Origin: Bifidobacterium apousia
Lineage (GTDB): Bacteria; Actinomycetota; Actinomycetes; Actinomycetales; Bifidobacteriaceae
Direction: 5' to 3'
Assembly: GCF_007559275.1 (NCBI RefSeq)
Contig: NZ_VMHK01000001.1
Span: forward strand, 496,001-560,000
Length of the DNA: 64,000 nt
Shown: positions 1,164-52,154 of the stretch, one piece after another
How the letters are laid out: the number at the start of each line of letters is the position of its first letter
How positions within the stretch are numbered: position 1 is the first letter of the stretch
The notes under the pieces: generated by a model
Databases searched by the model: none
What the model saw: only the letters and a program-made list of their open reading frames with translations
Told to the model about the DNA's origin: nothing
Made by a program: the position numbers and the translations under genes

Positions 1164-1164
1164 C

Positions 1165-6211: not shown

Positions 6212-8980
6212 GTGCCCAAAGCACGCGTGTATGAGCTGGCCAAGGAATTTGGCGTAGACAGCAAGACTGTTCTGGCGAAATTGAAGGACATGGGCGAGTT
6301 CGTCAAATCCGCATCCTCCACGGTCGAGGCCCCTGTGGTTCGTCGACTCAAGAACGCTTTCCCTCAGAAGGGACAGGGCGACGCTGGCCAGGCCGCTGCA
6401 CGAAATGCCCGGCCAGGCAGCCCTAATCATGGAAGCGGCCAGGGTCAGCATGGCCGCCCGCAGTCCGGCGGCACCCACCAGTCCACGCCTGGGCCCAAGC
6501 CCGGACAGGGCCATCGGCCTTCGGCCGGTGGCGACGCGCCACGGGGTCAGCAGCGTCCCGGTGGCCACTTCCCCAAGCCCGGTGCCCCCCAGGGCAACCG
6601 CCATGAGCATGAGCAGCGCAACCAGTCCCGTGGACCCAAGCCTTCAGCCATGGGCAGGCCCGGACCCCAGGGGTCGCGCAACAACGGTCGTCCCGGCGGA
6701 TCCAACGCTGCAGCAGCGCGTCATGGTGCACGGCCGGGAGCATCCACGCCTCGTCCAGGCAACAATCCTTTCAGCCGCAAGCAGGGGATGAAGGCTCCCA
6801 TGCCTTCGGACATCCCCAGGCCGCATCCTATGGCCAGGCCCACCGTCAACGACTCCCGCAGGGGCCGGGGCGGATTCCGCAACGGTCGTGGCGGTCGTTC
6901 CGGGCAGGGCGCCCGTCCAGGCCAGTGGGGTCATAACCGTCCAGGCCAGCAGACGCATCAGGGCGGCAGCCGTTTCGGCGGCGCTTCGTCGGCACCCTCA
7001 GGCGGCTTCCGCGGCGGTTCAGGTCGAGGCGGTCGTGGTCGCGGCGGCGCTGCCGGAGCCTTTGGCCGCCAGGGAGGCAAGTCCTCCAAGGCCCGCAAGA
7101 ACCGGATGGCCAAGAGGCATGAATTCCAGGAGATGAAGGCACCCGTCATCGGCGGCGTGCGCATCCCCGCTGGCAATGGGCGTACCGTCAAGCTGCGCCA
7201 GGGCGCCACCCTGGCCGACCTGGCTGACAAGATCAACGTCAACCCCGCTGCCCTGGTCACGGTGCTCTTCCACCTGGGCGAGATGGCTACGGCCACCCAG
7301 TCCCTGGATGAGGCGACCTTCCAGATTCTGGGCGACGAGATCGGCTGGAAGATTCGCATCGTCTCCGCCGAGGAGGAGGACAAGGAGCTCCTTCAGCAGT
7401 TCGACATCAACCTGGACGAAGAACGCGAGGACCAGGATGACAAGAACCTGCAGCCCAGGCCTCCGGTGGTTACGGTCATGGGCCATGTCGACCACGGCAA
7501 GACCCGGTTGCTGGACACCATTCGCAAGACCAACACGACCACCCAGGAGGCTGGCGGCATCACCCAGCGCATCGGAGCCTACCAGGCCACGGTCACCCTG
7601 GACGGGGAGGATCGCAAGATCACCTTCCTGGACACCCCTGGTCACGAGGCCTTTACGGCCATGCGTGCCCGTGGTGCCGAGCTGACGGATGTGGCTGTCC
7701 TGGTGGTGGCCGCGGACGACGGCGTCATGCCGCAGACCGTGGAGGCCATCAACCACGCCCAGGCCGCCCATGTGCCCATCGTGGTGGCTGTCAACAAGAT
7801 CGACGTCGAGGGAGCCAATCCCCAGAAGGTGCGCGGTCAGCTGACCGAGTTCGGCCTGGTATCCGAAGAGTATGGCGGCGACACCATGTTCGTCGACATC
7901 TCCGCCAAGCTGGGCACCAACGTGGACAAGCTCCTGGAGGCCGTCCTGCTGACTGCCGACGCCGATCTTGACCTTCGGGCCAACCCCGACATGGACGCTC
8001 GCGGCGCCACGGTCGAGGCCCGCTTGGACAAGGGTCGCGGAGCTGTGGCCACTGTGCTGGTCCAGCAGGGGACCCTGCATGTGGGCGATGCCATCGTGGC
8101 TGGATCGGCCTATGGTCGTGTGCGCGCCATGCTGGACGAGAACGGCCGGCAGATGGATGCCGCAGGCCCTTCCACGCCCGTGCAGGTGCTGGGGCTCACT
8201 TCGGTGCCCACCGCCGGCGACCTCTTCCTGGTCGCGCCCGACGATCGCACCGCCCGTCAGATCGCCGAGAAGCGCGAGGCTTCGGCCCGTGCCGCTCAGC
8301 TGGCCAAGCGCCGCAAGGTGGTCTCCCTGGAGAGCCTGAAGGAGCAGTTCGCCAAGTCCGAGGTGGACATGCTCAACATCGTCATCAAGGGCGACTCCTC
8401 CGGCTCGGTCGAGGCCCTGGAGGACTCCCTGATGAAGATCGAGGTATCCGACGAGGTCGGTATCCAGGTCATCCACCGGGGCGTGGGCGCCATCACCCAG
8501 AACGACGTCAACCTGGCCACGGTCGACAAGGCCGTCATCATCGGCTTCAATGTCCGGCCCAACCGGCAGGTCCAGGATCTGGCCGACCGCGAGGGTGTGG
8601 AGATCAAGTACTACTCGGTCATCTACAACGCCATCGAGGACATCGAGGCGGCGCTCAAGGGCATGCTCAAGCCGGAGTACGAGGAGGTCACCACCTCCCA
8701 CTCCGAGATCCGCGAGATCTTCCGTTCCTCCAAGTTCGGCAACATCGCGGGCGTCATGGTCCAGGACGGCACCGTCAAGCGGGGCACCAAGGCTCGCATC
8801 GCCCGCAACGGGGTGGTCACCATCAACGACCTGGAGATCTCCTCCCTGCGCCGGTTCAAGGACGATGTCAACGAGGTGTCCGAAGGCTACGAGGCTGGCA
8901 TCAACCTGGGCTCCTTCAACGACATCGAGGTTGGCGATATCATCGAGACCTACGAGATGCAGGAAGTGGAACGCAAGTAG
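6212..8980 (+). CDS. infB: Translation initiation factor IF-2
   Basis: IF-2 is the GTPase that delivers initiator fMet-tRNA to the 30S subunit and promotes subunit joining. The 922-residue product starts at GTG 6212 after AAGGAG. The IF2_N domain (1-55) begins [19 protein letters not shown]. Residues about 60-295 form a low-complexity linker of Gly, Arg, Pro, Gln and His. A second IF2_N-like segment follows, then the G domain with GHVDHGKT (424-431), DTPGHEAF and NKID. Domains II to IV include the terminal [15 protein letters not shown]. The long linker is typical of actinobacterial IF-2. Confidence 0.98.
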
Positions 8981-36484: not shown

Positions 36485-37186
36485 TCAGACGATGCGGCGG
36501 TCAGCGGCCCAGCGGGTCAGTTCGGTTCGGTTGGATAGCTGGAGCTTGCGCAGGACGTTGGAGACGTGGGTCTCAACCGTCTTGATGGAGATGAACAACT
36601 CAGAGGCTACCTCGCGGTAGGTGTAGCCGCGGGCGATCAGGCGCATGACCTCCTGCTCGCGTGCGGAGAGCCGATCCAGTTCGTCGTCTTCCGCCAGACC
36701 GGCATCTGCTGCCTCGTCCTCCTGGAAGGCGGAGAGCACGAATCCTGCCAGCTTGGGGGAGAAGACTGCGTACCCCTCGTGAACCTGGCGGATTGAGGAG
36801 ACCAGGTCCTTGGCGGAGATGGTCTTGGTCACGTAACCACGGGCTCCAGCGCGGATGACCGAGCCCACGTCCCTGGGCGAGTCGGATACGGAAAGGGCCA
36901 GAAAGACCGACTTGGGGGAGAGGGGATGAGAGCGGCTCAGGATTTCGGCGCCCCCGCCGCCCTGACCACCGGGAACGTGCACATCCAGCAGAACCACATC
37001 GGGCCGGGTCTGCCTGACCATGAGGATGGAGGATTCCACGTCTGCCGCTTGGCCCACGACGTGAAAATGCGGCTGCAGGGTGGTTATGACGCCGGTACGG
37101 AACATCTCATGGTCGTCGACGACGGCCACACGGATGCTTGCGGGCCCTCCCTCGGCTTGATGGGGCTCTGCTGCAGTCGTGGTCAT
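36485..37186 (-). CDS. LuxR-family response regulator
   Basis: This 233-aa NarL-type regulator has a receiver domain with the acidic pair DD near 24-25, the phospho-acceptor D68 (VVLLDVHVPGG) and conserved Thr and Lys (GYVTKTISAKDL). The C-terminal LuxR HTH has LSAREQEVMRLIARGYTYRE and SIKTVETHVSNVLRKL. It is encoded 112 nt downstream of the PspC-type sensor kinase and should be its partner. Known LiaR/PspC systems respond to cell-envelope stress. Confidence 0.93.
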   Translation of the reverse strand: MTTTAAEPHQAEGGPASIRVAVVDDHEMFRTGVITTLQPHFHVVGQAADVESSILMVRQTRPDVVLLDVHVPGGQGGGGAEILSRSHPLSPKSVFLALSVSDSPRDVGSVIRAGARGYVTKTISAKDLVSSIRQVHEGYAVFSPKLAGFVLSAFQEDEAADAGLAEDDELDRLSAREQEVMRLIARGYTYREVASELFISIKTVETHVSNVLRKLQLSNRTELTRWAADRRIV

Positions 37187-37298
37187 GGGCGTGGTTCAGC
37201 CCGCCTTTCCCGACGCGGGGTCCTCAAGTGTGGGTGGGATCGGACCGGCATGCGTCTGTGAATGAATGGTTCACCATGCATCCTATCATTGCTGGGCC

Positions 37299-38600
37299 TC
37301 AGTCCCCCTTTTCAGTCTGACCAACCTTGCCCTCCTGGTGTTGGCTGGCCTCGGACAGCGGCATGTGCATCCTGACCTCGGTGCCCCAACCCGGGCGCGA
37401 GACGATCTCGACCCTGCCGCCACGCCGCCGAATCCGGCCGATGATGGACTCTCGGATTCCCAGACGGTCGGCTGGAATCGCATCCATATCGAAGCCTGAT
37501 CCGTGGTCGCGTACGTAGACCTCAACCTGATTCCTGCGGGCCTCGCAATAGACGGAGATGGGTTCCCCACCGTGGGTTACGGCATTGACCAGGGCCTGTC
37601 GGGCCGCGTTGAGCAATGCATCGGTCTGGGCGCAGGGCATGGCGTCGCCCACGGTGACCACCTCGATCGGCTTGCCGGAATCGTCCTCCACCTGTGCGGC
37701 TATCTGGCTCAGCCCTGTGCTGACGGACCGGTCTGAGGGAGTGCGTTCCTGGTAGAGCCAGTTGCGCAGATCGCGCTCCTGGGAGCGAGCCAGGGTGAAG
37801 ACGGTATGCGGGTCGTCGGCATGCAGCTGGATCAGGGCCAGGGTCTGCAGGACGCCATCGTGCAGATGGGCCGCCATATCGGCCCGCTCTTCCTCGCGTT
37901 CCTTCATGGCTCGTTCATCGCCCAGCTGGCTGAGGATTGAGCCTACCCAGGGCACGACCACTGCGGTCACGCCCACAAGAAGCAGGCCGGCCAAGACTAT
38001 CAGGGTCAGGGCCCAATGCAGTTCCTGGGTGGAGAGCAGAAAGATCACCGCAGCAGACAGGATCAGGGCCAGGCTGCCTATCAGGGTCGGCAGGTGGTAG
38101 CCGGTTCCTTGGTTTTCCGGCCTCAGCCAGGCCAGAACCAGTCCTGCGCAGAAAAGCAGGCAGGGGACGACAAAGGCGGGGCGCATACCGCTGTTGAGCA
38201 GAAAGACCGCAGTCAGCAGAAGAATGATGCCCAGGCCTGCCAGCAGTCTGGTTATCCGCCCGGGACTGATGCCGTGATCCTCCTTCTGATCTGGCTGTTC
38301 AGTAAGGATGCTGGGTGCCAGCGGGGCTGACTTCGGGTCATTCGGTTGGACTGCCTGGGTGGGATCGCCCTGGGGGAGCGTCAACCACAGAAAGCAGTAG
38401 ATTACACAGGTGATCAATTTGGGGGCCATAAGCACCATGACCAGGCGGATCCAGAAGACGGGAATGCCCAGGTGTAGGCTGACGCCCTTGCAGACTCCGC
38501 ACAGGATCCTGCCCTTGTGTGGCCTCATCAGGGGCATGCGCGCAGGGTGCAGAGGAGGTGGTTCCCTCAACGTTTGTTCTTCCTGCATGGCTGCGTTCAT
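37299..38600 (-). CDS. PspC-domain sensor histidine kinase
   Basis: The 433-residue kinase starts with a PspC domain (about 22-77) containing KGRILCGVCKGVSLHLGIPV and one TM helix. About four more TM helices lie between residues 117 and 220. A HisKA_3 dimerisation domain has the phospho-acceptor H247 in AAHLHDGVLQTLALIQ. The HATPase domain has NAVTHGGEPISVY, DHGSGFD and the C-terminal RRRGGRVEIVSRPGWGTEV. It is transcribed divergently from a PspC membrane protein and together they form an envelope-stress module. Confidence 0.93.
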   Translation of the reverse strand: MNAAMQEEQTLREPPPLHPARMPLMRPHKGRILCGVCKGVSLHLGIPVFWIRLVMVLMAPKLITCVIYCFLWLTLPQGDPTQAVQPNDPKSAPLAPSILTEQPDQKEDHGISPGRITRLLAGLGIILLLTAVFLLNSGMRPAFVVPCLLFCAGLVLAWLRPENQGTGYHLPTLIGSLALILSAAVIFLLSTQELHWALTLIVLAGLLLVGVTAVVVPWVGSILSQLGDERAMKEREEERADMAAHLHDGVLQTLALIQLHADDPHTVFTLARSQERDLRNWLYQERTPSDRSVSTGLSQIAAQVEDDSGKPIEVVTVGDAMPCAQTDALLNAARQALVNAVTHGGEPISVYCEARRNQVEVYVRDHGSGFDMDAIPADRLGIRESIIGRIRRRGGRVEIVSRPGWGTEVRMHMPLSEASQHQEGKVGQTEKGD

Positions 38601-38713
38601 GCCTCCATTATCGGTTTCGGATCGTACCGATAGGGCAATAAGGGGAAGAAATCAGGGTCGAATCAGGGTGTTCCCCCATGAGATTTGCGCTCGCGGGGTG
38701 TTCTAATGAAGAT

Positions 38714-40618
38714 ATGAGTAGCGACATGAACGGCAATGGCCCCGACAACGGCTGGCAGTGGAAGTTCGACAGGTTCTTCCGCGCCTGCAGGGAGTCCTAT
38801 CTGATCCGTGACCAGGGATGGGTAGGCGGTGTTTGCGTAGCCTTGGCCCGTCGCCTGGGTTGGAGCGTGACCCTGGTCAGAGCCTTGATGATTCTGGCGG
38901 TCTTTTTCTTCGGTGCCGGTGCCGCCTTCTACGGCTTTGCCTGGTTCGTCCTGCCGGACCGGCGTGGGGTCATTATCGCCCAGGAGCTGATCCACGGGAT
39001 TTGGCATGCTTCCATGGTGGGCATTATCATTTACTGGCTGCTGGCCATCCTGATTCCTGGAGTCGGAATCTTTTCACTGGCCTTCGGTGCCCTGGTCCTG
39101 TATCTGTTCATCCGGTGGAGCCGCAACAAGGCCCTGGAGTACCAAAGAGGGTACTGGACTGGGCCGGATGCTGGCAGACCGGTTTCGGGCGATCCTTGGG
39201 TGATGGGACCGCAGTATTCGGAACGGCCGAGTGGTGCAGGCTCGCAATGGTATCCGAATCAGCCTAACTACCCAAGCTTTTCGGGGTATGAGGGGTACCA
39301 GGATTACACAGGGACGCGAAGCAATACGCAGACAGACGGCAATGCAAGCACAGAAGGATACAGGAACCAGCCAGGGGATTCCGATTCGTATGGAACTCGG
39401 GAACAACAAGGGGATGCGACTGCTTCCGGACATATTTTTGAGACAGCGGATTCGGCAAACGCTGCCAGCGATTCTGATAATACGCAAGGCTGTGAGAATC
39501 CTGTCGCTGGTGCAGCTCCCGGAGGTTGGACGGGGGCAGAAGGACCTGCAGAACCTGTTGGGAACATGAATCAGTCATATGGATTCAGTGACTGGCCGGA
39601 CTATGGCACAGCCGGGTCATTCTCGACAGGGCCGGGAATAGCCCGTAAGACTCCGTCGGTTCCGCCCCGGATACGGCGTCGTCCCGCCGGACCTGCGCTG
39701 GTCAGTCTTCTGTCAGGACTGATCCTGGTTTCCGGCGCAGGGGTCTGGTGGATGGCCACGAACCCCTATCGCGGATTGAATGTGGCCTTGACTTTCGCTC
39801 TGATCTGGGCTGGAGGCGTTACGCTGATACTTGGCGTGGTCATACTGATCCTGGGCTTGATGGGCCGCAGGTCTGGAGGACTGACCCCCATTGCCCTGAT
39901 GGCCTGCTTGGTTGTCCTGATGCTGGCTTCTGGTTCGGCCATACCAGGCATTGAGCAAACCCAGAACCGCAGGATCCTAGCCGAATACGCCACAGTTCAA
40001 GTTAACGGCAACAACCATGGGCGCTTGTTGGGGGCGGACAGTGCAGACATGAGGCGTTACCGCCGCGGAATCGCACTGGTCGGAGACCCGCAGGATCAGG
40101 GAAGTGCCGTCATTGACCTGACTGGTTATGAGCAGAAACACGGCACCCATCGTGTTCAGATTATGGATGATGCGGAGAGTACAGTCTCAGGCTGTCCGAC
40201 GGGCACCGTCCGCCTGGCTGTGGCCTATGCTGACGTTCGCCTGCTCATTCCTAAGGGATGCAGTCTGTCCTATAGGGAACACACCGACCTCTACAGGGTC
40301 TTGGGATCAGGCGCGGCTGACTGGATAACTGAGACGGAACAGGGAAACCGGATGTGGTGGGGCAATACGTCGCCATCAGCTGAACGACGCAATTGGGAGG
40401 AAGCCCTGCGAGCGTCCAAGGAGGATCAGTGGCATATGCCCGACGATCCCGAATTGATCGTCGATGCCAATCTCATGGCCGGTGCGCGGGTCACCGTGCA
40501 AGCCCAGGGGAGCGCTACCCAGCCGAAGCGGGCGCAGCTCTACAGCGGATCGATCAATGAATATTGGGATTATAGCTACAATCCATGGCAGTTTGGGGAG
40601 GATCAGGAAGATGACTGA
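38714..40618 (+). CDS. PspC-domain membrane protein
   Basis: I start it at ATG 38714 (MSSDMNGNGPDNGWQWKF), which gives 634 aa; the frame is open 36 nt earlier. The PspC block is LIRDQGWVGGVCVALARRLG, with two TM helices downstream, then a third pair of TM helices (about 100-140). A 180-residue cytoplasmic or external linker rich in Gly, Ser, Asn, Tyr and Gln follows. Three more TM helices (about 328-415) and a C-terminal domain with a beta-rich pattern complete it. The end resembles the DUF2154/LiaF-like region in context, but I am not certain. Translation of the next gene overlaps its stop. Confidence 0.85.
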   Translation: MSSDMNGNGPDNGWQWKFDRFFRACRESYLIRDQGWVGGVCVALARRLGWSVTLVRALMILAVFFFGAGAAFYGFAWFVLPDRRGVIIAQELIHGIWHASMVGIIIYWLLAILIPGVGIFSLAFGALVLYLFIRWSRNKALEYQRGYWTGPDAGRPVSGDPWVMGPQYSERPSGAGSQWYPNQPNYPSFSGYEGYQDYTGTRSNTQTDGNASTEGYRNQPGDSDSYGTREQQGDATASGHIFETADSANAASDSDNTQGCENPVAGAAPGGWTGAEGPAEPVGNMNQSYGFSDWPDYGTAGSFSTGPGIARKTPSVPPRIRRRPAGPALVSLLSGLILVSGAGVWWMATNPYRGLNVALTFALIWAGGVTLILGVVILILGLMGRRSGGLTPIALMACLVVLMLASGSAIPGIEQTQNRRILAEYATVQVNGNNHGRLLGADSADMRRYRRGIALVGDPQDQGSAVIDLTGYEQKHGTHRVQIMDDAESTVSGCPTGTVRLAVAYADVRLLIPKGCSLSYREHTDLYRVLGSGAADWITETEQGNRMWWGNTSPSAERRNWEEALRASKEDQWHMPDDPELIVDANLMAGARVTVQAQGSATQPKRAQLYSGSINEYWDYSYNPWQFGEDQEDD

Positions 40619-41018
40619 TATGCAGCAACCAGAAGGAGGCCATCCGCTCGATCGTCAGGAGCGCACCACCAAGGTCATGCCGGTTGAATCACAGGCACCC
40701 CCGATATACCAGGTTCGGATGCAGCCGCCGGAGCCGGTCCGTCCTAGCGGCCCCAGCATGCCTACCATCATTTTTGGCGTCCTGGTTGGACTTTTGGCTC
40801 TGACCATGTTGGCTTTAGGATTGGTCTTTCTGCGTTACGGTACGGATCTGACCCTAGTCATACCCTGGCAGCGGATTATTCCATTGATTTTTGCTGGCCT
40901 GGGCTTGGTGCTGATTGTCGCTGCTATATCAACTTGGCTGGCATCAACAAAGCGCGTTCGTCATGACTCAAAAGACCAAGATATTCCAGAAGATCAGGCT
41001 GCCAAGGATGGCCAGTGA
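40611..41018 (+). CDS. Small membrane protein of the PspC module
   Basis: Starting at ATG 40611, which overlaps the PspC gene stop by 8 nt, the product has 135 aa. Two TM segments (about 50-72, IIFGVLVGLLALTMLALGLVF, and 83-108) follow a Gln/Pro-rich N-terminus (PPIYQVRMQPPEPVRPSG), and the C-terminus is charged. I do not recognise a family. The overlapping start suggests coupled translation. The last 51 nt overlap the 3' end of the convergent hydrolase gene. Confidence 0.75.
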   Translation: MTDMQQPEGGHPLDRQERTTKVMPVESQAPPIYQVRMQPPEPVRPSGPSMPTIIFGVLVGLLALTMLALGLVFLRYGTDLTLVIPWQRIIPLIFAGLGLVLIVAAISTWLASTKRVRHDSKDQDIPEDQAAKDGQ

Positions 41019-42524
41019 CCCCAACAGGGTTAGGGTCAGGGTCAGCCAGTGGCCAGCGCCAACTACAGCTGGTTTGCCGTCAGGCCGGCTGAAGATGGAG
41101 GTCAGGGTGCTCGCCAAGAGCAGGATGAACATCAGGCAGAGACCTGATAGTAGGAACCAGGAGAATGTCATCATCGAGGACAGATGGACCAGGCCGAAGG
41201 CTTGGCGGACCACAGTGAAGGCATAGGCCAGCAGGGCCGTTATCAGTCCTGCGGCCAACAGTCCCAGTGCCCAAAGCCGTCCGGCCAGACCTTTGCTGAA
41301 GCCGGACCGTTGTCTGACATTGCCTCGAGCCCGCAGATGTGAGTTCAAGGCTCCTATCAGGGCAGTTATGAGGGCAGCAACCAGCAGAACGGGGCCACTG
41401 GCCATCAAGGTCAGCAGGGCGGTCAGCGAGGAAATCAATCCGGAATCAGTACGATCAGGTACTTGATTGAGCTGGTGGGGCTGGCTGCCGGCGATCATGG
41501 GAGTGGACCATTGATCGGCCTGGGTGCCCAAGGCTACAGCGTTGATCCAGTCTTCCAGATTATGAGTATACCGGGGTTCCAAGGGCAACCCGGCCTTGGC
41601 CAGCCGACTGCCGGTGCGAATCTGATGGTTGGTGGGGTAGTAGCGCAGGGTCACATTGTCATTGCCGCTTGCATGAGTTCTGCGGATGATTTCGCGTGCA
41701 CCCTGCTCGATTGGCATGGAGATATCCATGGTGCCGAAGTTGATCATGACGGGCATCCGCAGCTGGTCCAGATAAGGCAGGGAGGGGAAGTCGGCGTACT
41801 CCAGGCCCAGCAGGGACAGGTCCATGCTAATGAACCGGGGTATCACAGTGCGGATTCCCTTGGGCGCGCCAATCAGATCCAAGTAGTTGGTAGCCGCCAT
41901 GGCCATCTGCCGCCGTCCCGGGTAGACGGGGGGCGAAGTCAGGATGGAAAAGGCGATACTGGAGTCCTTGGCGGTCATGATGGACGATATCCAGGTGCCC
42001 TCGGACTCGGCGTACAGGCCTACCTTGGTTGGATCCACACCCGGCCAGGAGCGTAGTTGGTCAAGCGATCGCTGGTAGTCGGCGGCTAAGGAATGATAGT
42101 CGCGGTGGAAGGTGGTGTAGTTATCCAAACGCTTGTCAGGCACCAGGGTGGTGATGCCGGCCGAGGCCATGGCTGAGGCCAGATCGCCATACACTTCTGA
42201 GGATTTGCCGGTTCCGGCGCCGTGGATGAACAAGCAGGCTGGCCCCGTGCCCTCTCGATCGCGCGGCTGTCTGACGATGGCCTGGATGCGGACTCCGCCA
42301 TCCAGAGCAATGCTGATTTTCCGTTCTTTGACCTTATAAGTACCTTCAGGGGTGGTAGCTCCAAGGCGCGAGGCGATAGCTGTGGACCGGGTCGGAACCT
42401 TGATGTGGTCTCGATAGGGTTCCACCTGCCAGTCGGGTGTCATGGCTTGGCCCAAAAGGAGCATGACCAGCAGGATGACCACGAAGGAGGCGGCAGTGAA
42501 GCCCGCCCGTTTCAGCTTTTGCAC
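40968..42524 (-). CDS. Membrane-anchored alpha/beta hydrolase
   Basis: The 518-aa product starts with GTG 42524. An N-terminal TM helix (7-27) leads into an extracytoplasmic alpha/beta-hydrolase domain (about 60-330). Its oxyanion block is FIHGAGTGKS, the predicted nucleophile S174 is in LYAESEGTW (Ala replaces the first Gly of GxSxG), and Asp in INFGTMDIS and His in YYPTNHQIRTG could complete the triad. The C-terminal 150 residues hold about four more TM helices. It begins 9 nt after the DUF4125 gene in the same direction, so it is probably the third gene of that operon. Substrate unknown. Confidence 0.85.
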   Translation of the reverse strand: MQKLKRAGFTAASFVVILLVMLLLGQAMTPDWQVEPYRDHIKVPTRSTAIASRLGATTPEGTYKVKERKISIALDGGVRIQAIVRQPRDREGTGPACLFIHGAGTGKSSEVYGDLASAMASAGITTLVPDKRLDNYTTFHRDYHSLAADYQRSLDQLRSWPGVDPTKVGLYAESEGTWISSIMTAKDSSIAFSILTSPPVYPGRRQMAMAATNYLDLIGAPKGIRTVIPRFISMDLSLLGLEYADFPSLPYLDQLRMPVMINFGTMDISMPIEQGAREIIRRTHASGNDNVTLRYYPTNHQIRTGSRLAKAGLPLEPRYTHNLEDWINAVALGTQADQWSTPMIAGSQPHQLNQVPDRTDSGLISSLTALLTLMASGPVLLVAALITALIGALNSHLRARGNVRQRSGFSKGLAGRLWALGLLAAGLITALLAYAFTVVRQAFGLVHLSSMMTFSWFLLSGLCLMFILLLASTLTSIFSRPDGKPAVVGAGHWLTLTLTLLGSLAILGSLIFWNILVF

Positions 42525-42533
42525 CCGTCAACT

Positions 42534-43226
42534 TTACCTGACCGTTCGACAAGTTGAAGAGATTGAAGCTCCTGATTGTGGTTCAGGAGGTCGGTCCTGG
42601 GCCTGTTCGGCTTCGTCCAGGGTCTCGAAGCCGTTCATTTGCACTGTGGCCAGGATGGTTTCCTCGGTCAGGTTGCCGCCACGGGCCTCGATCTGGTCCA
42701 CCATGGACTGGTAAAGATCCAGGGTCCGGGCCGAATAGGTGCCTAGTTCGCCACGCAGATAGGTCTCGAAAGAGGTGGCTTCCGGAGTGTCTTCACTGGT
42801 GCGCAGGACTCGCATCTCCTGACCTAGACGGGGGTAGCGCTCGCGAAAGTCCTTGGCCCAGGCCACCTGCCTGTCGATGATGCGTTCCTGCTGCCCCTGT
42901 CGGTCCAGGCCCAGCCGGGGCAGGTAGGGGGCGATGCTGCTGTGGTACTGGTCTGGGGCTGTGGACTCCATCATCCGCCCATACTTCTCGGTCAACAGGT
43001 TGCGCCCTTGTTTGTCGGCCTGATCCAGGTCGTCCGCATAGCTGGTCAGCAGGGGATGCGGCCAGGTCAGGAACTGGCTCAGGCGCATCTGGTGGAACAT
43101 GGGCCAGTTGCCCTGACAGTTGGCCGGACCGCCCTCATTGTTGACCTGTTGGAACTGTTCCCATTCGTGGCGGACGATCCGCTCGCGCAGGGATTCCTCA
43201 TTCTGGCATTGCTCGTCGTTTGCCAT
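42534..43226 (-). CDS. DUF4125 family protein
   Basis: This 230-aa soluble protein has AAAGGAG before ATG 43226. The first 70 residues match what I recall of DUF4125: LRERIVRHEWEQFQQVNNEG, then CQGNWPMFHQMRLSQFLTWP and LLTSYADDL. The rest is helical with few hydrophobic stretches. No catalytic motif is visible and the function is unknown. The gene lies 12 nt downstream of the TPR-DUF4037 gene, a pairing I recall from other Gram-positives, which suggests the two products act together. Confidence 0.85.
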   Translation of the reverse strand: MANDEQCQNEESLRERIVRHEWEQFQQVNNEGGPANCQGNWPMFHQMRLSQFLTWPHPLLTSYADDLDQADKQGRNLLTEKYGRMMESTAPDQYHSSIAPYLPRLGLDRQGQQERIIDRQVAWAKDFRERYPRLGQEMRVLRTSEDTPEATSFETYLRGELGTYSARTLDLYQSMVDQIEARGGNLTEETILATVQMNGFETLDEAEQAQDRPPEPQSGASISSTCRTVR

Positions 43227-43238
43227 CCTTGGCTCCTT

Positions 43239-45278
43239 TCAGATGCTGTGCAGAACCGTGTCGTCACTGGAAATGTGCGCTTCGACATAGGGGCGCTGCC
43301 ATTCCAGGAAGGTTTCGGGGCTGTTGGTCAGGCCCTCCGCCTGCAACTCTTCCACGATTCTTGCGCAGATGGACTCCACAAGCTCGGTGACGCGTTCGGC
43401 GGCCGGCCGGGCCCCCTTGCCGCCTTCGCCAAAGCCTTGCCCCCCGTAACAGGCAGCCGATGCCAGGCGCAGGATGTCCTCCAGCTGCTCGGTCAGGTCG
43501 GCCAGCCTGGTGGCCACTCGTCCGCTCAGCCGCCGCAGGGCCGCGAAGGTCCACTTGTAATAGGGCAGGTAACCGACGGTCAGCGGATTGTTGATCAGGA
43601 AGATCAGGGAGGCGCAGGCTTTGATGAACTCGTTGATTGACAGCATGGCTGCAGCCTCGTCGCCCCGCTGCAGACTCCGCGGCAGATTGTATTGGCCCGC
43701 CTGGGCGATCATGCCCAGCCGACGGGAGATCAGGCAGAAGCGCACATCGTCGGGCATGGCCTTGAACCCTTGCCGGGTGGCCAGCATCTGTCCCAGAGGA
43801 TCGGCGAAAATCCTGCCGTTGGTGGCCGCCGCCAGTGTGGCCTCGTCCAGGAGCAGCCACTCGTGGGGGTGATCTTCCGGGGGCGCCTGCCGGTAGCCGG
43901 TCAGGGATTCGAAGAAGGCGCCGATCTCAAAGACGCCTACACGTCGGTTAGCCCCCTTAGCTCTGACGCTGTCGGTTCGTGAGCCGAACCCCATGAATTC
44001 GGTGGGCAGGGCCTCATAGTCCTTCTGCAGCTGGTCGCCGATGGTCTGGTAATCCTCGCTGGTCAGCCACAGGCAGAAGCCGGGGCCGAAATCATGATCC
44101 CGGGAGATGGCGTCGTCAAAGCCGTAGCAGTCCGATCCATGGCCCATCAGGCCTACGGCGATCCGGCCGCGATATTGGGGGTAGCGTTCCTCCAGCATGG
44201 GACGGCCCACCTGCTCCCAGTAAGTCTTGGCCAGGTCCAGTCCTTGAATATCCGTGCGGGAATCATGCTGATTGTTGTCATTGTTCTGATTCCTGGCCGG
44301 ATGCCGGTTTGAACCGGTCTTTGGCTGGCTGGGTGCTGCCTGCTTAGCCTGGTCGGATTGGTCCTTGTCCCCGTTTTTATCAGCAGCGGCCTGGGCCTGG
44401 CCCAGATTGGCCTTGGTGATCTGGTAGTAGTCGCTGCCCTTACCGTATCGATCCTCAATGATGGCCAAGGCCTTGCGATAGGTGTCTGCCGATTGACTGA
44501 AGCGACCGGTCATATAACAGACTTGAGCAAAGCCGGCCAAGGCTGAGGCATAGTGTGCGCTGTTTTCCAGGTGGCCGGTTCGATAAATATCCAGAGCTGT
44601 GCGAGCCTGGTCCCAGGCCTCTTGCAGAGCCTGCGGACTGTCGCTGCGCTGCATGAGCAGAAGGGCCAGATTGGTGTGGGTGGTGGCCAGATCCTGATCC
44701 TGGGAAGGGTCAGTGCTGGAATTCTCCAGGATGCCCATGGCTTGGCGCAGCTCCTGCTCGGCCTGGTCGGGTCGGTCGGTTTCGCTGTAGAGCATGGACA
44801 GGTTGTTGTGCAGGGCCGCCAGGCGCCGATCCTTGGACCCAAGGGTCTTGGCTGCGGAGGCAAGCGCCTGCCGGTAGAGGTCTTCGGCCTGGTCGTACTT
44901 CTTGGCTGCCCGCAGACCTGTGGCTGCATTAATCAGGGTGGTCGTCCAGGCCTCGGACCCCTCAATACGCATGCGTGTGGCCAGTTCGATGGCGCGCTGG
45001 ATCATCCACATGTTCTCCTGGTGGCGGCCCTGGGACCGGTAGAAGCCCATGATTTCGTTCAGCACGGTCAGCAGTCCGGCATCATTGCCCGCATTCTCCG
45101 CATCCACCAGCGCCTGCTGCAGGTAGGGTTCAGCTTCGTCGCGAGCCTTGCCCGCACTGAAGATGGCATCCAGTCCGTCCAGGAAGGCTTGGGTGTCGAA
45201 GCTGCCGTCCGGTTGCAGGTAGGACTGTTGAGGCTCTTCCCGCTTGCTGTCTGGGATAGGTGTCTGGTCCTGGCTCAT
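43239..45278 (-). CDS. TPR-repeat protein with C-terminal DUF4037 nucleotidyltransferase-like domain
   Basis: The 679-residue protein has three parts. Residues 30-300 are TPR-like helical pairs (for example AEDLYRQALASAAKTLGSKD and HTNLALLLMQRSDSPQALQ). Residues 300-345 are a polar, disordered linker rich in Asn, Gln, Asp and Lys. Residues 345-679 are DUF4037, whose GHGSDCYGFDDAISRDHDFG (380-399) gives the G-S... D-x-D pattern of nucleotidyltransferases (G381, S382, D394, D396). No substrate is known to me. It heads the likely operon TPR-DUF4037, DUF4125, hydrolase, and a perfect palindrome lies 76 nt upstream of the start. Confidence 0.85.
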   Translation of the reverse strand: MSQDQTPIPDSKREEPQQSYLQPDGSFDTQAFLDGLDAIFSAGKARDEAEPYLQQALVDAENAGNDAGLLTVLNEIMGFYRSQGRHQENMWMIQRAIELATRMRIEGSEAWTTTLINAATGLRAAKKYDQAEDLYRQALASAAKTLGSKDRRLAALHNNLSMLYSETDRPDQAEQELRQAMGILENSSTDPSQDQDLATTHTNLALLLMQRSDSPQALQEAWDQARTALDIYRTGHLENSAHYASALAGFAQVCYMTGRFSQSADTYRKALAIIEDRYGKGSDYYQITKANLGQAQAAADKNGDKDQSDQAKQAAPSQPKTGSNRHPARNQNNDNNQHDSRTDIQGLDLAKTYWEQVGRPMLEERYPQYRGRIAVGLMGHGSDCYGFDDAISRDHDFGPGFCLWLTSEDYQTIGDQLQKDYEALPTEFMGFGSRTDSVRAKGANRRVGVFEIGAFFESLTGYRQAPPEDHPHEWLLLDEATLAAATNGRIFADPLGQMLATRQGFKAMPDDVRFCLISRRLGMIAQAGQYNLPRSLQRGDEAAAMLSINEFIKACASLIFLINNPLTVGYLPYYKWTFAALRRLSGRVATRLADLTEQLEDILRLASAACYGGQGFGEGGKGARPAAERVTELVESICARIVEELQAEGLTNSPETFLEWQRPYVEAHISSDDTVLHSI

Positions 45279-45406: not shown

Positions 45407-45988
45407 TCACACCTGCCCGGTGCAGTTGCCTGAATGGGTAACGAGGAGCTCGGCCAAACAGCGCTCATGATTTTGGAAGTGATGGTTTCTTCGATACAAC
45501 TCGATGACACGACAGAGCTCATCCGCGTCATTCCAATATTGGTGCAAGAAAGCATACTGCTTGATCTTGTGCAGCCCCAGTTTCTCCTTGCAGAATTCGC
45601 TGGGTTTCATGTTATTGACGTGCGTCCAGTCCCTATAGGCCCCCTCTTTGATGATGGCCAGGATCTCGATCTCAGGACGAGTAGTCAGTGTAAGTACACG
45701 GGCTTTAGACTGGTACAAAGGCGACAAGTGAAAGCGTTCATTTGGCGAGTCAATAATACGGACGATATTCACGCACGAAGAACCATAGGTCACGGAAAGG
45801 AACCGTTCCTCGATTTCCCTATCTTTACGGCAGCGGGTATAAAACCGACCAGTCTGCGGATCTTCAATAAGGGAATCTTTAGGGATGATCAGTTTTCCTG
45901 CTGTCAGTAGGAGTTCAAAGATGACGCTTTCGGCAGACCCTTCGCAGATAACCAAGGTAGGTTCATTATAAATCGCTTGACTATCCAT
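45407..45988 (-). CDS. TOPRIM/RloB-like partner of the AAA ATPase
   Basis: The ATG at 45988 overlaps the ATPase stop by 8 nt, giving 193 aa. The N-terminus PTLVICEGSAESVIFELLL resembles a TOPRIM first strand with its catalytic Glu. The strand VNIVRIIDSPNERFHLSP has one clear Asp rather than a full DxD, and TTRPEIEILAIIKEG follows. These are features of RloB/AbiLii-type small proteins encoded after AAA15 ATPases. The overlap suggests coupled translation. I infer a nuclease or nucleotide-handling role in a defence pair; family assignment is by pattern only. Confidence 0.65.
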   Translation of the reverse strand: MDSQAIYNEPTLVICEGSAESVIFELLLTAGKLIIPKDSLIEDPQTGRFYTRCRKDREIEERFLSVTYGSSCVNIVRIIDSPNERFHLSPLYQSKARVLTLTTRPEIEILAIIKEGAYRDWTHVNNMKPSEFCKEKLGLHKIKQYAFLHQYWNDADELCRVIELYRRNHHFQNHERCLAELLVTHSGNCTGQV

Positions 45989-47183
45989 GAACCGTTTCCT
46001 TGACGTAGCTCCGCAAGGCGCTGATGGAAGCGGCTGAGGGCGCGGTTCCTTGCAGGGCACCCGACATGAACTGGACGCTCTTCTTCAGTTCACCGCGGGT
46101 GACCAGCTTGTTATACCGGATCAGTTGGAATCCAGCGTTCTCATGCCTGACAGCGAACCAAATGTTGTCCTTTCTGGTGAAATGGTCCAGCAGTTCTGGA
46201 TAGTGCGTAGAAAAAACGAGTACCGCCCCATGCGGGTTAGTAGCAGGAGAGGAGAACAAGTCGATGATAGCGAAGACCAACTGCTTGTTTATGCTGTTTT
46301 CGATTTCGTCGAATAGTAAGTAGCCTCCTTGCGCAAGTGTTTCGATAGCATGTTGTGCCAAGGAGGTTCCGCGGAATGTTCCCGCCGATATCATGGCCAT
46401 AGCTTGCGAGGGATCACAGTCGCGCTCAACCTTTTCATTGCGGAACTTGATATGGAACTGGTGATCGCTTACTTCCAAGTGTTCGATGGTCGGATCGAAT
46501 AGACGTACCACTTGCGATGGGGGAGTGACAGGAATGGACATTTGCAGCGGATTTTGCAGACAGAGGGTGACCACGGTCTCCTTGGTGCGCAGAATCCCCG
46601 TCGTTAGAGAGCGATCGGGGGGCAAAAATCTCTTGACATCCTCGGCCAGCTCCTTTTCGTCGCCCGACTTATTCATTCCTCGAGTCGCTACAGTCCACCA
46701 GGATTCTTCGTCGCCATCTATGGTTCTTTTCAAACGAATCTTGCTCAGACTTCTGCCTGCATACTGGCAAAGCCGTTCCTTTTCGAAAACTAAGGGGGAG
46801 TCGGCGGTGGCCTCGTCCTTGTCGGCGCGACGGAGTGTGGCATTGAGCAGCCAAGCCTCGCCGTTTTCTTCGAAGATAATGCGTGCTGTAATCGTGGGCT
46901 CAAGAATGTCCATCAGCGGATCGATGGTGGAGCGTTGAGTTCCCAATGAAGCGCCTCTGGCAATGTTGATGATTAGAGAAAGCAGGCGTAGATCAGTGGT
47001 TTTGCCGGAGGCATTGATACCGGAGATGCCAATGGCTGTGACGATGCCAAGCGGTGAGGTGGTGCTCTGAAGGCGATGGGTGAAGCTGCCATCGGTAATC
47101 CTATCTTCGGCGAACAGGATCATGCGTAGTGCGCCCTTGTCGTATAAGCGAAGTCCTTTAAGGTCAAAGGCTAAGATCCGCAT
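45981..47183 (-). CDS. AAA15-type ATPase (AbiLi/RloA-like), probable anti-phage system
   Basis: The 400-residue ATPase starts at ATG 47183, with AAAGGAG upstream. It has Walker A GISGINASGKTTDLRLLSL near residues 52-70, a long insert, the signature-like MISAGTFRGTSLAQHAIE and Walker B GGYLLFDEIENSINKQL, followed by VLVFSTHYPELLDHF. These are marks of the ABC/SMC-related AAA15 family, whose members often form abortive-infection pairs (AbiL, RloAB). Codon and base use look more AT-rich than the housekeeping genes. A TOPRIM-like gene overlaps its end. Not shown here to be antiviral. Confidence 0.8.
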   Translation of the reverse strand: MRILAFDLKGLRLYDKGALRMILFAEDRITDGSFTHRLQSTTSPLGIVTAIGISGINASGKTTDLRLLSLIINIARGASLGTQRSTIDPLMDILEPTITARIIFEENGEAWLLNATLRRADKDEATADSPLVFEKERLCQYAGRSLSKIRLKRTIDGDEESWWTVATRGMNKSGDEKELAEDVKRFLPPDRSLTTGILRTKETVVTLCLQNPLQMSIPVTPPSQVVRLFDPTIEHLEVSDHQFHIKFRNEKVERDCDPSQAMAMISAGTFRGTSLAQHAIETLAQGGYLLFDEIENSINKQLVFAIIDLFSSPATNPHGAVLVFSTHYPELLDHFTRKDNIWFAVRHENAGFQLIRYNKLVTRGELKKSVQFMSGALQGTAPSAASISALRSYVKETVHG

Positions 47184-49349: not shown

Positions 49350-50330
49350 ATGAATATCAGGCTGTGGATGGATGGCATGCGTCCCAGGACGCTGCCTGCC
49401 TCGGTGGCGCCTGTCTGCGTGGGCGCTTCGGCAGCACTCCTGGAGCGGTCACGGCTCTTGGAACAGTGCACCAGTTCCTGTTCGCCCACGCCTGTCGACC
49501 CTGCCCTGAAGGCAGCCACACCGGGAAGGCTGGCTCTAATCGTGGTCCTGCTGGTCCTGCTCGCCCTGTCTATGCAGATTGCAGCCAACTTCGCCAACGA
49601 CTACGCCGATGGTGTTCGCGGCACTGACTCCGGCCGTGGAGGCGAGGAGGCCGCCTCTGGCAGACCGAGGCGTCTGGTGGCCGCCGGCGTGCCGCCCAAG
49701 AAGGTGCTGTACGCCACCATGATCTCGGCGGCCTTCACCTGCCTGATGGGCCTGATTGTCATGGCTCTGACCGGTCATTGGTGGATGATCCTGGTCGGGG
49801 TCTGCTGCCTGATAGCCGGCTGGTGTTACGTAGGCGGCCCGCATCCATACGGCTACCACGGGCTGGGCGAGGTCAGCGTATTCATCTTCTTTGGTCTGGT
49901 GGCCACCCTGGGCACCGAGTACTTCCTCATTAATAGGGTCGATGCCGCCGGCATCCTGGGTGCCTGCGTCTGCGGGCTCAATGCCGTGGGCCTGCTCATG
50001 CTCAACAATTACCGGGACCTGGATGATGACCGTCAAGCCGGCAAGCACACATACGCTGTTCTGGTGGGGGCGCGTGCTGCGGCTATCTCCATCTACCTGG
50101 TCTACATCCTGAGCCTGGTCCTGGGCCTGATTCAGTTCGTTCCGGCTGTCATGCGGCGTGGCCTGCCCGGCTTCCCCCTTGTGCTGGTCCTCCTGCCTGT
50201 GGCTGTTGTCTTTCTGCTGATCTGTCGAGCCTTTGCCCGCGGCCAGGTGCCCAAGGCTTTCGGTATGGCAGGCAAGGGTACTCTGGTCTCCGCCCTGTGC
50301 TGGTCGGCGGGCCTGCTCCTGCAGCTGTGA
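49350..50330 (+). CDS. UbiA/MenA-like prenyltransferase, copy 1
   Basis: This integral membrane protein (326 aa) belongs to the UbiA superfamily. The first Asp-rich motif is ANFANDYADGVRGTD (79-93) and the second is NNYRDLDDDRQAGKHTYAV, the pattern of 1,4-dihydroxy-2-naphthoate polyprenyltransferase. About eight TM helices are expected. Residues 30-60 form an unusual hydrophilic loop. GGGGGAGGG precedes ATG 49350. A paralogue follows 66 nt downstream. As bifidobacteria generally lack menaquinone, the true acceptor is an open question. Confidence 0.88.
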   Translation: MNIRLWMDGMRPRTLPASVAPVCVGASAALLERSRLLEQCTSSCSPTPVDPALKAATPGRLALIVVLLVLLALSMQIAANFANDYADGVRGTDSGRGGEEAASGRPRRLVAAGVPPKKVLYATMISAAFTCLMGLIVMALTGHWWMILVGVCCLIAGWCYVGGPHPYGYHGLGEVSVFIFFGLVATLGTEYFLINRVDAAGILGACVCGLNAVGLLMLNNYRDLDDDRQAGKHTYAVLVGARAAAISIYLVYILSLVLGLIQFVPAVMRRGLPGFPLVLVLLPVAVVFLLICRAFARGQVPKAFGMAGKGTLVSALCWSAGLLLQL

Positions 50331-50396
50331 AAATCTTGATACGCTCATAAGAGAGCAGTCCGACTTTCAAGCGATTTGGTGGATAATCAGGCAATC

Positions 50397-51344
50397 ATGT
50401 TCATCACAATTCAGGAATACAAGGACGCACTGCGACCCTCGGCCTTGCTTTGCTCGCCCACGCCGGTGCTGATCGGCACGGCGGTGGCCCTCCGGCAGCT
50501 GTTCAGCCAAGGGTTGAGGCCGGATGCGCGCTTCTGGCTGATCGCTCTCTTGTGCTGTCTGACGGCTGTGTTCATCCACAGCACCTGCAATCTGGCCAAT
50601 GACTACTTTGATGGCATCAGGGGCACTGACGAAGGCCGGAGCAGCCTTTCGGGAGCTGGCGCTGACGGCTCGGTGCCTGATCTGCCCAGAAGAGGGGTGG
50701 CCGGTGGTGTGGAGCCTCGCAAGGTTCTGCTGTCCGCCTACCTCAACATCCTTATGGCTTGCCTGTCCGGACTGACCCTCTGCTGGGTGACTAGCCACTG
50801 GTGGATGATCCTGGTCGGCATTTTCTGTCTGCTGGGAGCCTGGTTCTACACGGGAGGCAAGCACCCTTACGGTTATAGGGCCATGGGCGAGCTGAGCATC
50901 ATGATCTTCTTTGGCCTGGTGGGCGTGCTGGCCACCCAGTACCTGGAGACTGGCAGCATCGACCGTCACGGGTTCATCGGCGCCCTGGTTGGCGGTCTTA
51001 TCTGTATTCCTGTTCTGGAGATCAACAACTATCGAGACATTGATGCGGATCCTCTGGCCGGCAAGTACACGCTGTCTTCCTTCATCGGAGCCAGAGGCAC
51101 GCTGATTCTGATGGGGTCCTGCTATGCCCTGGCTGTAATCCTGGGCGTGGTTGAGTCATGGTCTCTGTCTGACGGCTCTCTTGCGAACGTCTGGCCCCGT
51201 CTGCTCTGCCTGCTGCCTGTCCTGGCTCTGGCCATTGCCACCACAGCGGCCAGCTGTCGGAACCGCTTCAGTAGGGCCTTTGCGCTGTCGGGCTATACCG
51301 ATCTGCTGACAGGGTTCTGCTGGCTGGGTGTCTGCCTGCTTTAA
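50397..51344 (+). CDS. UbiA/MenA-like prenyltransferase, copy 2
   Basis: The ATG at 50397 gives 315 aa; TTG 50376 and GTG 50379 are in-frame alternatives, and none has a strong ribosome site. Asp-rich motifs are CNLANDYFDGIRGTDEGR and EINNYRDIDADPLAGKYTLS. Both copies share the blocks SHWWMILVG/GHWWMILVG and HPYGYxxxGExSxxIFFGLV, showing a tandem duplication followed by divergence. About eight TM helices are expected. Ten G residues follow its stop, upstream of gpmA. Confidence 0.86.
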   Translation: MFITIQEYKDALRPSALLCSPTPVLIGTAVALRQLFSQGLRPDARFWLIALLCCLTAVFIHSTCNLANDYFDGIRGTDEGRSSLSGAGADGSVPDLPRRGVAGGVEPRKVLLSAYLNILMACLSGLTLCWVTSHWWMILVGIFCLLGAWFYTGGKHPYGYRAMGELSIMIFFGLVGVLATQYLETGSIDRHGFIGALVGGLICIPVLEINNYRDIDADPLAGKYTLSSFIGARGTLILMGSCYALAVILGVVESWSLSDGSLANVWPRLLCLLPVLALAIATTAASCRNRFSRAFALSGYTDLLTGFCWLGVCLL

Positions 51345-51357
51345 GTGACCGCTCTAC

Positions 51358-51367
51358 GGGGGGGGGG
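51358..51367 (+). repeat. Homopolymeric G tract (10 G)
   Basis: Ten consecutive G residues lie between the second prenyltransferase gene and gpmA, 46 nt before the gpmA start. Such tracts are prone to slipped-strand change and to sequencing error. Confidence 0.85.
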
Positions 51368-51413
51368 CTGTAGATCCGCCAAACAGTCCCTCTTAGGTCT
51401 TAGAATTTTCACT

Positions 51414-52154
51414 ATGACCTACAAACTAGTATTGCTCAGGCACGGCCAGAGCGCATGGAACAACACCAATCAGTTCACCGGCTGGGTGGACGTCCCGCTG
51501 ACCGAGCAGGGCGAGCAGGAGGCCCGCAAAGGCGGCAAGCTGCTCAAGGATAAGGGTGTCCTGCCGGACATCGTCTTTACCTCACTGCTGCGCCGCGCCA
51601 TCAACACCGCCAACATCGCCTTGGACGAGGCTGACCGCCTTTGGATCCCTGTCAAGCGCGACTGGAGGCTGAACGAGCGTCACTACGGAGCACTGCAGGG
51701 CAAGAACAAGACCGAGATCCGCGAGAAGTACGGTGATGAGAAGTTCATGCTCTGGCGTCGTTCCTATGCCACCCCGCCACCCGAAATCGACCCTGACGAC
51801 GAATACTCGCAGTCCCATGATCCCCGGTATGCCGGAGCCCCAGTGCCTCGCGCCGAGGCGCTGGCCAACGTGGTCAAGCGCGTCACCCCCTACTGGGAGA
51901 GCGACATTGTTCCTGAGCTCAAGACCGGCAAGACCGTCCTGATTGCTGCCCACGGCAACTCCCTGAGGGCCATCGTCAAGATGCTCGACAACCTGACTGA
52001 GGACGAGATTGCCAAGGTCAACATTCCCACGGCCATCCCCCTGGTCTACGAGTTGGATGAGAACTTCAAGCCCATCAAGCCTCGTGGCGAGTATCTGGAT
52101 CCGGAAGCAGCCGCTGCTGGTGCTGCTGCTGTGGCGGCCCAAGGCCAGAAGTGA
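51414..52154 (+). CDS. gpmA: 2,3-bisphosphoglycerate-dependent phosphoglycerate mutase
   Basis: GpmA interconverts 3- and 2-phosphoglycerate in glycolysis. The 246-residue product starts at ATG 51414 and has the catalytic [20 protein letters not shown] with H10, RRAINTANI, and [14 protein letters not shown] with the second active-site Glu region. The [10 protein letters not shown] block carries the second catalytic His. The open frame extends 23 codons upstream through the G tract, but the family start is at MTYKLV. Confidence 0.96.

Follow-up and report, generated by a model that had tools for sequence, protein, structure and literature searches.

What is the role of two adjacent genes in Bifidobacterium apousia whose products carry the domains of unknown function DUF4037 and DUF4125? 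We addressed this question for a stretch of 64,000 nt, hereafter the window (positions 496,001 to 560,000 of the forward strand of contig NZ_VMHK01000001.1, assembly GCF_007559275.1), in which one gene encodes tetratricopeptide repeats (TPRs) followed by a nucleotidyltransferase (NT) domain with DUF4037, and the other encodes DUF4125. In our reading, to which we assign a probability of roughly 45%, the pair encodes an accessory module that serves glycyl radical enzymes (GREs) and has three parts, the TPRs, an NT-DUF4037 part of the kanamycin nucleotidyltransferase (KNTase) type and the helical DUF4125. The GRE context, our main lead, had not been raised in an earlier, sequence-only reading of the window; it came from reading the neighbouring genes and from a paper on a limonene operon (PMC12583861), and was then tested. 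Recurrent neighbours seen in this way also included MFS, two-component and other genes, the GRE lead alone being put to the test.

TPR, NT-DUF4037 and DUF4125 form one module

The two genes lie side by side in the window, separated by 12 nt, and their open reading frames are exactly those given in the sequence-only reading. The large TPR-NT-DUF4037 protein is present in one copy in the host genome (2.06 Mb, 14 contigs). From a DUF4125 scan of genome contigs we kept the best 80 of 101 relatives, 58 from Bifidobacteriaceae and 22 from other bacteria. By script, the pair was adjacent on one strand in 55 of the 58 named Bifidobacteriaceae loci; among the three misses, L088 has adjacent genes with overlapping open frames, L044 coincides with the start of a contig and the two genes of L038 are ∼3.2 kb apart. 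Globally, DUF4125 was detected in 120 of 151 Bifidobacteriaceae genomes, with one match in each, and DUF4037 in 124, of which 120 matched strongly (≥80 bits) and four had only a weak match in a short protein. When the lists were compared side by side, the 120 genomes with strong DUF4037 were the same 120 that hold DUF4125, indicating that the two genes were retained or lost as a unit. Fourteen Bifidobacteriaceae genomes encode the weak, short DUF4037 protein (264–455 amino acids per frame, e.g. G124:C1:1150004-1150276), ten of them as a second copy and four (G099, G113, G138, G144) as the sole copy, these four being without DUF4125.

The degree of assembly varies among loci. Three neighbouring genes for TPR, NT and DUF4125 were found at L030, L036 and L100, a TPR-NT gene with a separate DUF4125 gene outside Bifidobacteriaceae at L039, and a single TPR-NT-DUF4037-DUF4125 chain at L035, L040, L047, L051 and L052, with Pfam E-values in each of these five of ≤2.1e-77 for DUF4125, ≤1.2e-22 for DUF4037 and ≤5e-17 for TPR_12. 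Using local profiles on one stretch per genome, we detected the three-part chain in 8 of 42 non-Bifidobacteriaceae genomes; in 28 of the 42 an NT adjoined the DUF4125 frame or formed part of it, and in 26 a TPR did so (table count; several loci stop at contig edges). At L180 and L182, TPR and DUF4125 share one open frame. Adjacency and three kinds of fusion show that TPR, NT-DUF4037 and DUF4125 are one module, and the pairing proposed from the sequence holds across Bifidobacteriaceae and well beyond, with co-occurrence in favour of the gene pair. At Fusobacterium locus L108, an unrelated gene (7093-8001, Abi_2-like by eye) separates TPR-NT from DUF4125.

GREs neighbour the module in part of the genomes outside Bifidobacteriaceae

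Outside Bifidobacteriaceae, GREs of several classes, along with their radical-SAM activases, neighbour the module at a frequency well above expectation. A GRE lay within 12 kb of DUF4125 in 12 of the 42 genomes (1.08 expected, P = 1.3e-10) and within 5 kb in 10 (0.70 expected, P = 7e-10); with the close relatives G395, G451 and G461 dropped, 9 of 39 remained within 12 kb (1.02 expected, P = 2.6e-7). This first sample holds one place per genome: for G461, which has two, the GRE-adjoining L117 was used and the other (a 3.5-kb contig) dropped, as was a second, stop-containing DUF4125 match in G452. A second sample, chosen afterwards, comprised the phylum of Desulfovibrio, which we take to be that of genome G455; DUF4125 was present in 24 of its 267 genomes, leaving 23 new genomes with 27 places. 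Here a GRE was found in the examined stretch at 10 of the 27 places (9 of 23 genomes), with an expectation of 0.56 (P = 7.7e-11) if four GREs per genome are assumed and of 1.65 (P = 2e-6) if 12 are assumed, and at three further places the stretch contained an activase without a GRE. Relatives of Desulfovibrio were present in the first sample, too. All expectations derive from GRE numbers per genome rather than from a matched control family; the numbers for the first sample are candidates taken as upper bounds, those for the second are assumed. Distant GREs may be missed, since the GRE profile was built from eight GREs of linked loci.

Several of the linked loci hold the genes in series. At L169, all five genes run on one strand with gaps under 30 nt, in the order GRE (503-3040), activase (3043-4023), TPR (4051-4605), NT (4605-5525) and DUF4125 (5550-6149). 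Profile matches follow the same order on one strand at L110, while the order is DUF4125, activase, GRE at L177 and TPR, NT, DUF4125, activase, GRE, TPR at L127. In L113 (Actinomycetota) and L123 (Clostridia), the TPR/NT/DUF4125 trio sits inside microcompartment loci for choline trimethylamine-lyase (CutC), with an acetaldehyde dehydrogenase gene on one side and, on the other, a MerR-like and an alcohol-dehydrogenase-like gene, both of these identified by reading. CutC scored 1651 and 1653 bits in these two loci against a cut-off of 1050, where the shell proteins narrowly missed the EutM cut-off (130 and 133 vs 133), and it was also detected in L180 and L182 (1650 and 1653 bits).

Other loci hold GREs of other classes. 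L111 and L116 each encode a 4-hydroxyphenylacetate decarboxylase (1661 and 1633 bits, cut-off 1150) together with an activase, that of L116 falling just below its cut-off (409 vs 420); L112 has the same gene order as L111, and the partial stretch of the L110 GRE reached 953 bits for the decarboxylase model. The L169 GRE scored 984 bits for sulfopropanediol dehydratase (cut-off 1000), and that of L124 passed the PFL2-3 subfamily cut-off only. No named equivalog cut-off was reached by the GREs of L114 (a partial stretch), L115, L117, L118, L127, L156, L158, L170, L177 and L181; those of L175 and L179 are cut by the stretch ends and were left out of the classification. That the GREs serve several unrelated chemistries argues for a general GRE accessory.

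Two further features of these loci may be recorded. In relatives of Desulfovibrio, small proteins that look HesB/IscA-like by eye are encoded between the GRE and the TPR/DUF4125 genes (L115:9598-10298 and L117:6285-6740), and a gene that reads as MFS transporter-like was repeatedly present in the vicinity of GRE and DUF4125 (L111, L112, L115 and L116).

Genomes with DUF4125 encode GREs

A genome-wide presence test covered Actinomycetota, Bifidobacteriaceae and Clostridia as well as the genomes of named loci. GREs resembling pyruvate formate-lyase (PFL; PF02901) were present in 49 of 296 Actinomycetota genomes, and all 12 with DUF4125 are among the 49. In Bifidobacteriaceae, 131 of 151 genomes were positive, including all 120 that hold DUF4125, and none of the 20 negatives has DUF4125. 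For Clostridia, presumably the class of G446, the count was 221 of 293, with 12 of 12 DUF4125 genomes over the cut-off positive. All 20 genomes of the named loci hold a PFL-like GRE (G446 is also in the Clostridia set), and outside Bifidobacteriaceae a GRE was detected in 42 of 42 distinct DUF4125 genomes, G446 being counted once. The host genome has one PF02901 match, which is PFL-like and lies on another contig. Because this is the only GRE detected there, PFL would be the client of the module in bifidobacteria.

A number of points weigh against a link to GREs. No GRE was near in 30 of the 42 genomes and at 17 of the 27 second-sample places; many stretches end at contig edges. In Bifidobacteriaceae, all 58 loci, the majority having 6-kb flanks, came up empty for GREs and activases, as did a 24-kb slice of the window around the pair, so that the link to PFL in this family is made by elimination. 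The 12-kb limit was chosen after two distances of 9–10 kb had been seen, and the P values treat genomes as independent, ignoring kinship. Co-occurrence is confounded by anaerobic life, as the Clostridia baseline illustrates, and by shared ancestry. In addition, 11 PFL-positive Bifidobacteriaceae are without DUF4125, and G752, a Clostridia genome whose DUF4125 match is below threshold and contains a stop, did not come out as positive for a GRE. Seven Actinomycetota genomes have DUF4125 but no DUF4037 match anywhere, with no NT, TPR or GRE in the stretch examined. Finally, DUF4125 is near a GRE with no NT in the stretch at L111, L112, L116, L117, L170, L177, L180 and L181 (L117 and L170 near contig ends). 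The NT is thus not obligatory and looks like a regulator atop DUF4125 rather than the core.

These points could be accommodated if the module acted more broadly in anaerobic or redox stress, with GRE proximity reflecting the mere clustering of genes for anaerobic metabolism. The many loci with no nearby GRE speak for such a role, as do the commonness of GREs in Clostridia and the comparison of proximity with expectations from GRE numbers only. We nevertheless regard this explanation as unlikely, given that the neighbours are the GRE and activase genes themselves, that they belong to several classes and at L169 form a series with gaps under 30 nt, and that the linkage exceeds expectation in two samples.

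The large protein combines TPRs with a KNTase-type domain

NTs of the KNTase type share a core motif of G-S followed by D-x-D. The GSD...DxD pattern noticed in the sequence-only reading is real (G381-S382-D383...D394-H395-D396): in 87 distinct sequences, G381, S382, D388, D389, S392, D394 and H395 were each conserved in 87 and D396 in 86. The acidic residues of the motif are thus conserved; a lack of conservation had been named in the earlier reading as refuting its proposal, and this check came out in its favour. In the helical part, N531, R534, R538, P572 and K575 were each present in 87 of 87, and D493 (86/87) is a candidate third catalytic acid. The Pfam DUF4037 match scored 97.6 bits (curated cut-off 22.1). 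For the TPR region, TPR_12 matched with E = 2.8e-20 (best stretch residues 113-185); sequence searches of the PDB with the large protein returned TPRs of kinesin type and designed ones, the nearest solved relatives being those of kinesin light chain (7ai4_A, E = 2.9e-13, residues 70-320). The fusion of a TPR array to an NT domain is thus confirmed, and the idea of a signal-responsive enzyme, which the earlier reading drew from it, is plausible.

An AlphaFold2 model of residues 341-679 was of high confidence (mean predicted local distance difference test score, pLDDT, 93.0; predicted template-modelling score, pTM, 0.90). The top Foldseek matches were the NT-like protein 3c18 and KNTase/ANT(4′), with a probability of 1.00 but E-values of only 0.005–0.02. 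VIA-align also gave KNTase/ANT(4′) as the best match (Z = 12.3 over 239 residues, 11–13% identity over aligned residues), a score to be read with caution and to the detriment of our assignment, since the tool itself warns that widespread arrangements of helices may account for Z values below about 13 and the root-mean-square deviation is large (6.5); many helical bundles followed at Z of 8–11, HEPN proteins among them. By this comparison of a model with solved structures, at modest E-values, the NT domain and its helical C-terminal domain are arranged as in KNTase, which gives the NT-like domain of the earlier reading a specific type. A HEPN-type C-terminal domain agrees with a table in a 2013 survey of HEPN proteins, which lists a DUF4037-type domain as 'Occasionally fused to TPRs' (PMC3710099).

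The enzymes closest in fold (1kny, 6un8) share with the module an NT plus helical C-terminal domain and the G-S...D-x-D signature, and together with 3c18 they raise the possibility of a small-molecule NT that carries out either a modification of the aminoglycoside kind or a step in a biosynthesis, DUF4125 being a second enzyme. The module differs from KNTase/ANT(4′) in its TPR array, its DUF4125 partner and its GRE-linked loci. Neither the length of the TPR array, nor the fusion to DUF4125, nor the presence of several chemically unrelated GREs nearby points to a single small molecule, and we consider this explanation quite improbable.

DUF4125 is a conserved, predicted helical protein with its own signature

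The second protein matches DUF4125 over most of its length (E = 9e-79, 264.2 bits, curated cut-off 25), and its model is all helical (mean pLDDT 91.8, pTM 0.87). No solved chain matched this model well (best Foldseek E = 4.1; VIA Z ≤4.2 among 66 chains), nor did any viral model in BFVD (best E = 2.7), and nothing credible was found in the PDB by sequence. For a predicted model, such a lack of matches is no proof of a new fold. Sixteen columns are invariant in 57 aligned DUF4125 sequences, including E21, W22, C37, Q38, R48, N76, K81, Y82, Y156, E160 and T163; among 112 distinct sequences, E21 and E160 were found in all 112, R48 in 110 and N76, K81 and Y156 in 108 each. All 21 conserved columns are kept in four of six Actinomycetota genomes with no DUF4037 partner in the genome, the exceptions being G215 (positions 25, 35 and 38) and G317 (25 and 38). 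Because they are kept where the partner is missing, the conserved residues appear to serve a function of DUF4125 itself. Two diverged DUF4125 copies lie on either side of a TPR gene in L111 (10658-12751) and L112 (5480-7573); the copies have lost different sets of conserved residues and possibly form a heterodimer.

Does DUF4125 then act alone as the GRE factor, with TPR and NT as regulators that transfer no nucleotide, the NT being a degenerate binding domain? DUF4125 genes near GREs with no NT, as at L111, L116, L177 and L181, and the retention of conserved columns in genomes that lack the NT are in line with this. The near-invariance of the NT signature in the 87 distinct sequences, by contrast, argues for retained catalysis, and we consider a purely non-catalytic NT an improbable solution.

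An NT next to a small helical partner, with KNTase and chains of the MntA-HepT complex among the structural neighbours, is also reminiscent of HEPN/MNT systems (MntA-HepT, SO_3166-SO_3165); HEPN bundles also turned up as structural neighbours of the C-terminal domain of the NT itself. The pair could accordingly be a toxin–antitoxin or defence pair in which an NT antitoxin nucleotidylates a DUF4125 toxin. HEPN proteins carry the motif R-x4-6-H, whereas no histidine is found among the DUF4125 columns conserved at ≥95% (112 sequences) or among the invariant and near-invariant columns (57 sequences), and hence no conserved motif of this kind. There was also no HEPN chain among the matches listed for the DUF4125 model, a list that cannot exclude a HEPN fold. 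Instead of the patchy, mobile distribution expected of such pairs, the module is a single-copy feature of 120 of 151 Bifidobacteriaceae genomes and occupies the same place in the named loci. Its partners can be fused into one chain, it is placed in metabolic GRE operons, and DUF4125 persists in the seven Actinomycetota genomes with no DUF4037, which is unlikely for a toxin. One query of phage records gave no DUF4125 match and two short patterns confirmed no relative in viral contigs, while PADLOC matched the module with a generic TPR model only. Taken together, we judge a toxin–antitoxin or defence function very unlikely. The one DUF4125 match among plasmids is a 2.1-Mb Fusobacterium record that is labelled a plasmid and looks chromosomal, and PHROGs returned one functionally uncharacterised family for the TPR region along with a family of esterases. 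A faecal 'phage' scaffold of unverified status encodes one NT plus TPR and no DUF4125 in 12.9 kb; its surrounding genes look bacterial by eye, and we give it no weight.

Genes around the module in the window

The features of the locus are collected in Table 1. The position of the alpha/beta-hydrolase-like gene, 9 nt after the DUF4125 gene, was confirmed by the open reading frame check, whereas its proposed role as a third partner was not borne out by consistent company. A homologue was found near DUF4125 on the same strand in 25 of 58 Bifidobacteriaceae loci and on the opposite strand in seven, was not found in 25 and could not be assessed in one with too short a contig; outside the family, 0 of 22 loci had one. 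We therefore rejected the hydrolase as a member of the module. It falls under the cut-off of each of four listed Pfam families (best BAAT_C, 19.1 vs 20.9 bits).

Table 1. Coordinates of the module, its domains and the adjoining gene within the 64,000-nt window
Feature	Position in window	Strand	Basis or remark
TPR-nucleotidyltransferase-DUF4037 gene, 679 amino acids	43239..45278	(-)	Open reading frame and Pfam
TPR superhelix, approx. residues 35-290 (edges estimated)	44409..45176	(-)	Pfam and PDB sequence match
NT and helical C-terminal domain, residues 344-669	43272..44249	(-)	KNTase/ANT(4′)-like model
NT signature G381-S382...D388-D389..S392.D394-H395-D396, residues 381-396	44091..44138	(-)	Alignment of 87 sequences
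Pfam DUF4037 match, residues 474-577	43548..43859	(-)	E 7.7e-28
DUF4125 gene, 230 amino acids	42534..43226	(-)	Open reading frame and Pfam; predicted all-helical
DUF4125 Pfam match, residues 12-208	42603-43193	(-)	Pfam
Alpha/beta-hydrolase-like gene, 518 amino acids, GTG start	40968..42524	(-)	Neighbour only, judged outside the module

Upstream of the module, overlapping genes (window 45407-47183, minus strand) encode an AAA_21 ATPase, which matches the AbiLi defence model of PADLOC (E = 3.8e-29), and a 217-amino-acid partner without a Pfam match. As an AbiLi-type pair occurs in that place only at L049 and L063 among the 58 Bifidobacteriaceae loci, it is probably an inserted defence pair. On the other side (36485-40618) lie genes for a LuxR-type response regulator, a PspC-histidine kinase, whose best NCBIfam match is MacS at a score under the MacS cut-off, and a divergent PspC membrane protein; such LuxR/PspC-kinase/PspC genes are near the module in many Bifidobacteriaceae loci. 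Elsewhere in the window, a lysyl-tRNA synthetase-like gene, so named from reading the sequence, is followed by two tandem UbiA-type prenyltransferase genes and then a histidine-phosphatase family gene (49350-52154, plus strand).

A possible system for the control of GREs

GREs drive formate fermentation and the degradation of hydrocarbons under anaerobic conditions, and in the gut they give rise to trimethylamine and p-cresol; they are destroyed by oxygen. Among their helpers, the radical-SAM activase, the GrcA spare part, the AdhE deactivase and the BssE chaperone act on GRE activation or repair, and some are encoded beside GREs. To our knowledge, cellular control of GREs beyond the activase is poorly understood, and we know of no GRE helper that is an NT, a TPR protein or DUF4125-like. 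We rate the system as new for this reason, with the reservation that it is association, rather than chemistry, that our data show.

The link to GREs is well supported; the chemistry is what we infer. The TPR array would serve as a scaffold or sensor, its ligand being the GRE, the activase of the GRE or a signal of state. A protein would receive a nucleoside monophosphate from the NT, with DUF4125 and the GRE or activase as the most likely targets. DUF4125, in turn, would be the part acting on the GRE, by controlling, protecting or maintaining its activation. The client in the host genome would, by elimination, be the PFL-like GRE, presumably pyruvate formate-lyase. More broadly, and somewhat more tentatively than for the bifidobacterial pair, we propose that TPR-NT-DUF4125 may be a general, nucleotidylation-based device for GRE control or repair, with DUF4125 as an effector of unrecognised fold; its clients could be PFL in bifidobacteria and, elsewhere, choline trimethylamine-lyase microcompartments and aryl-acetate decarboxylases.

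Earlier sightings of these domains are scattered. In the limonene ring-cleavage operon, LrcL (DUF4125) and LrcM (DUF4037) follow bssE, a chaperone gene for GRE activation, and thus present the same domain pair in a GRE-activation context; in the passage concerned they are reported as domains of unknown function, with no mention of TPRs (PMC12583861). A TPR/DUF4037 protein is listed in a core-gene table of B. longum subsp. infantis (PMC8477406), a DUF4125 gene of Gardnerella is reported to be down 17-fold in mixed biofilms (PMC11410844), and a DUF4037 protein is named in PMC10050317. DUF4125 is absent from the main text of the HEPN survey, whose table passage on DUF4037 gives no GRE link or function (PMC3710099), and the main text of a microcompartment locus taxonomy contains none of the terms nucleotidyltransferase, tetratricopeptide, TPR or DUF40 (PMC4207490). 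In the open PMC literature, DUF4037 occurs in four papers and DUF4125 in two, and the Pfam accession numbers led to one paper, on Plasmodium. No paper there joins 'glycyl radical enzyme' with tetratricopeptide or nucleotidyltransferase, and since subscription papers were mostly beyond this search, earlier notice is possible; none there joins 'glycyl radical', nucleotidyltransferase and microcompartment, or TPR, NT, HEPN and AMPylation.

Our results suggest that the module helps to control or maintain oxygen-sensitive GREs. They provide two domains of unknown function, DUF4037 and DUF4125, with a concrete hypothesis. If it is true, the module would represent a new layer of GRE control that recurs beside several GRE classes and that can be tested in harmless, culturable bifidobacteria.

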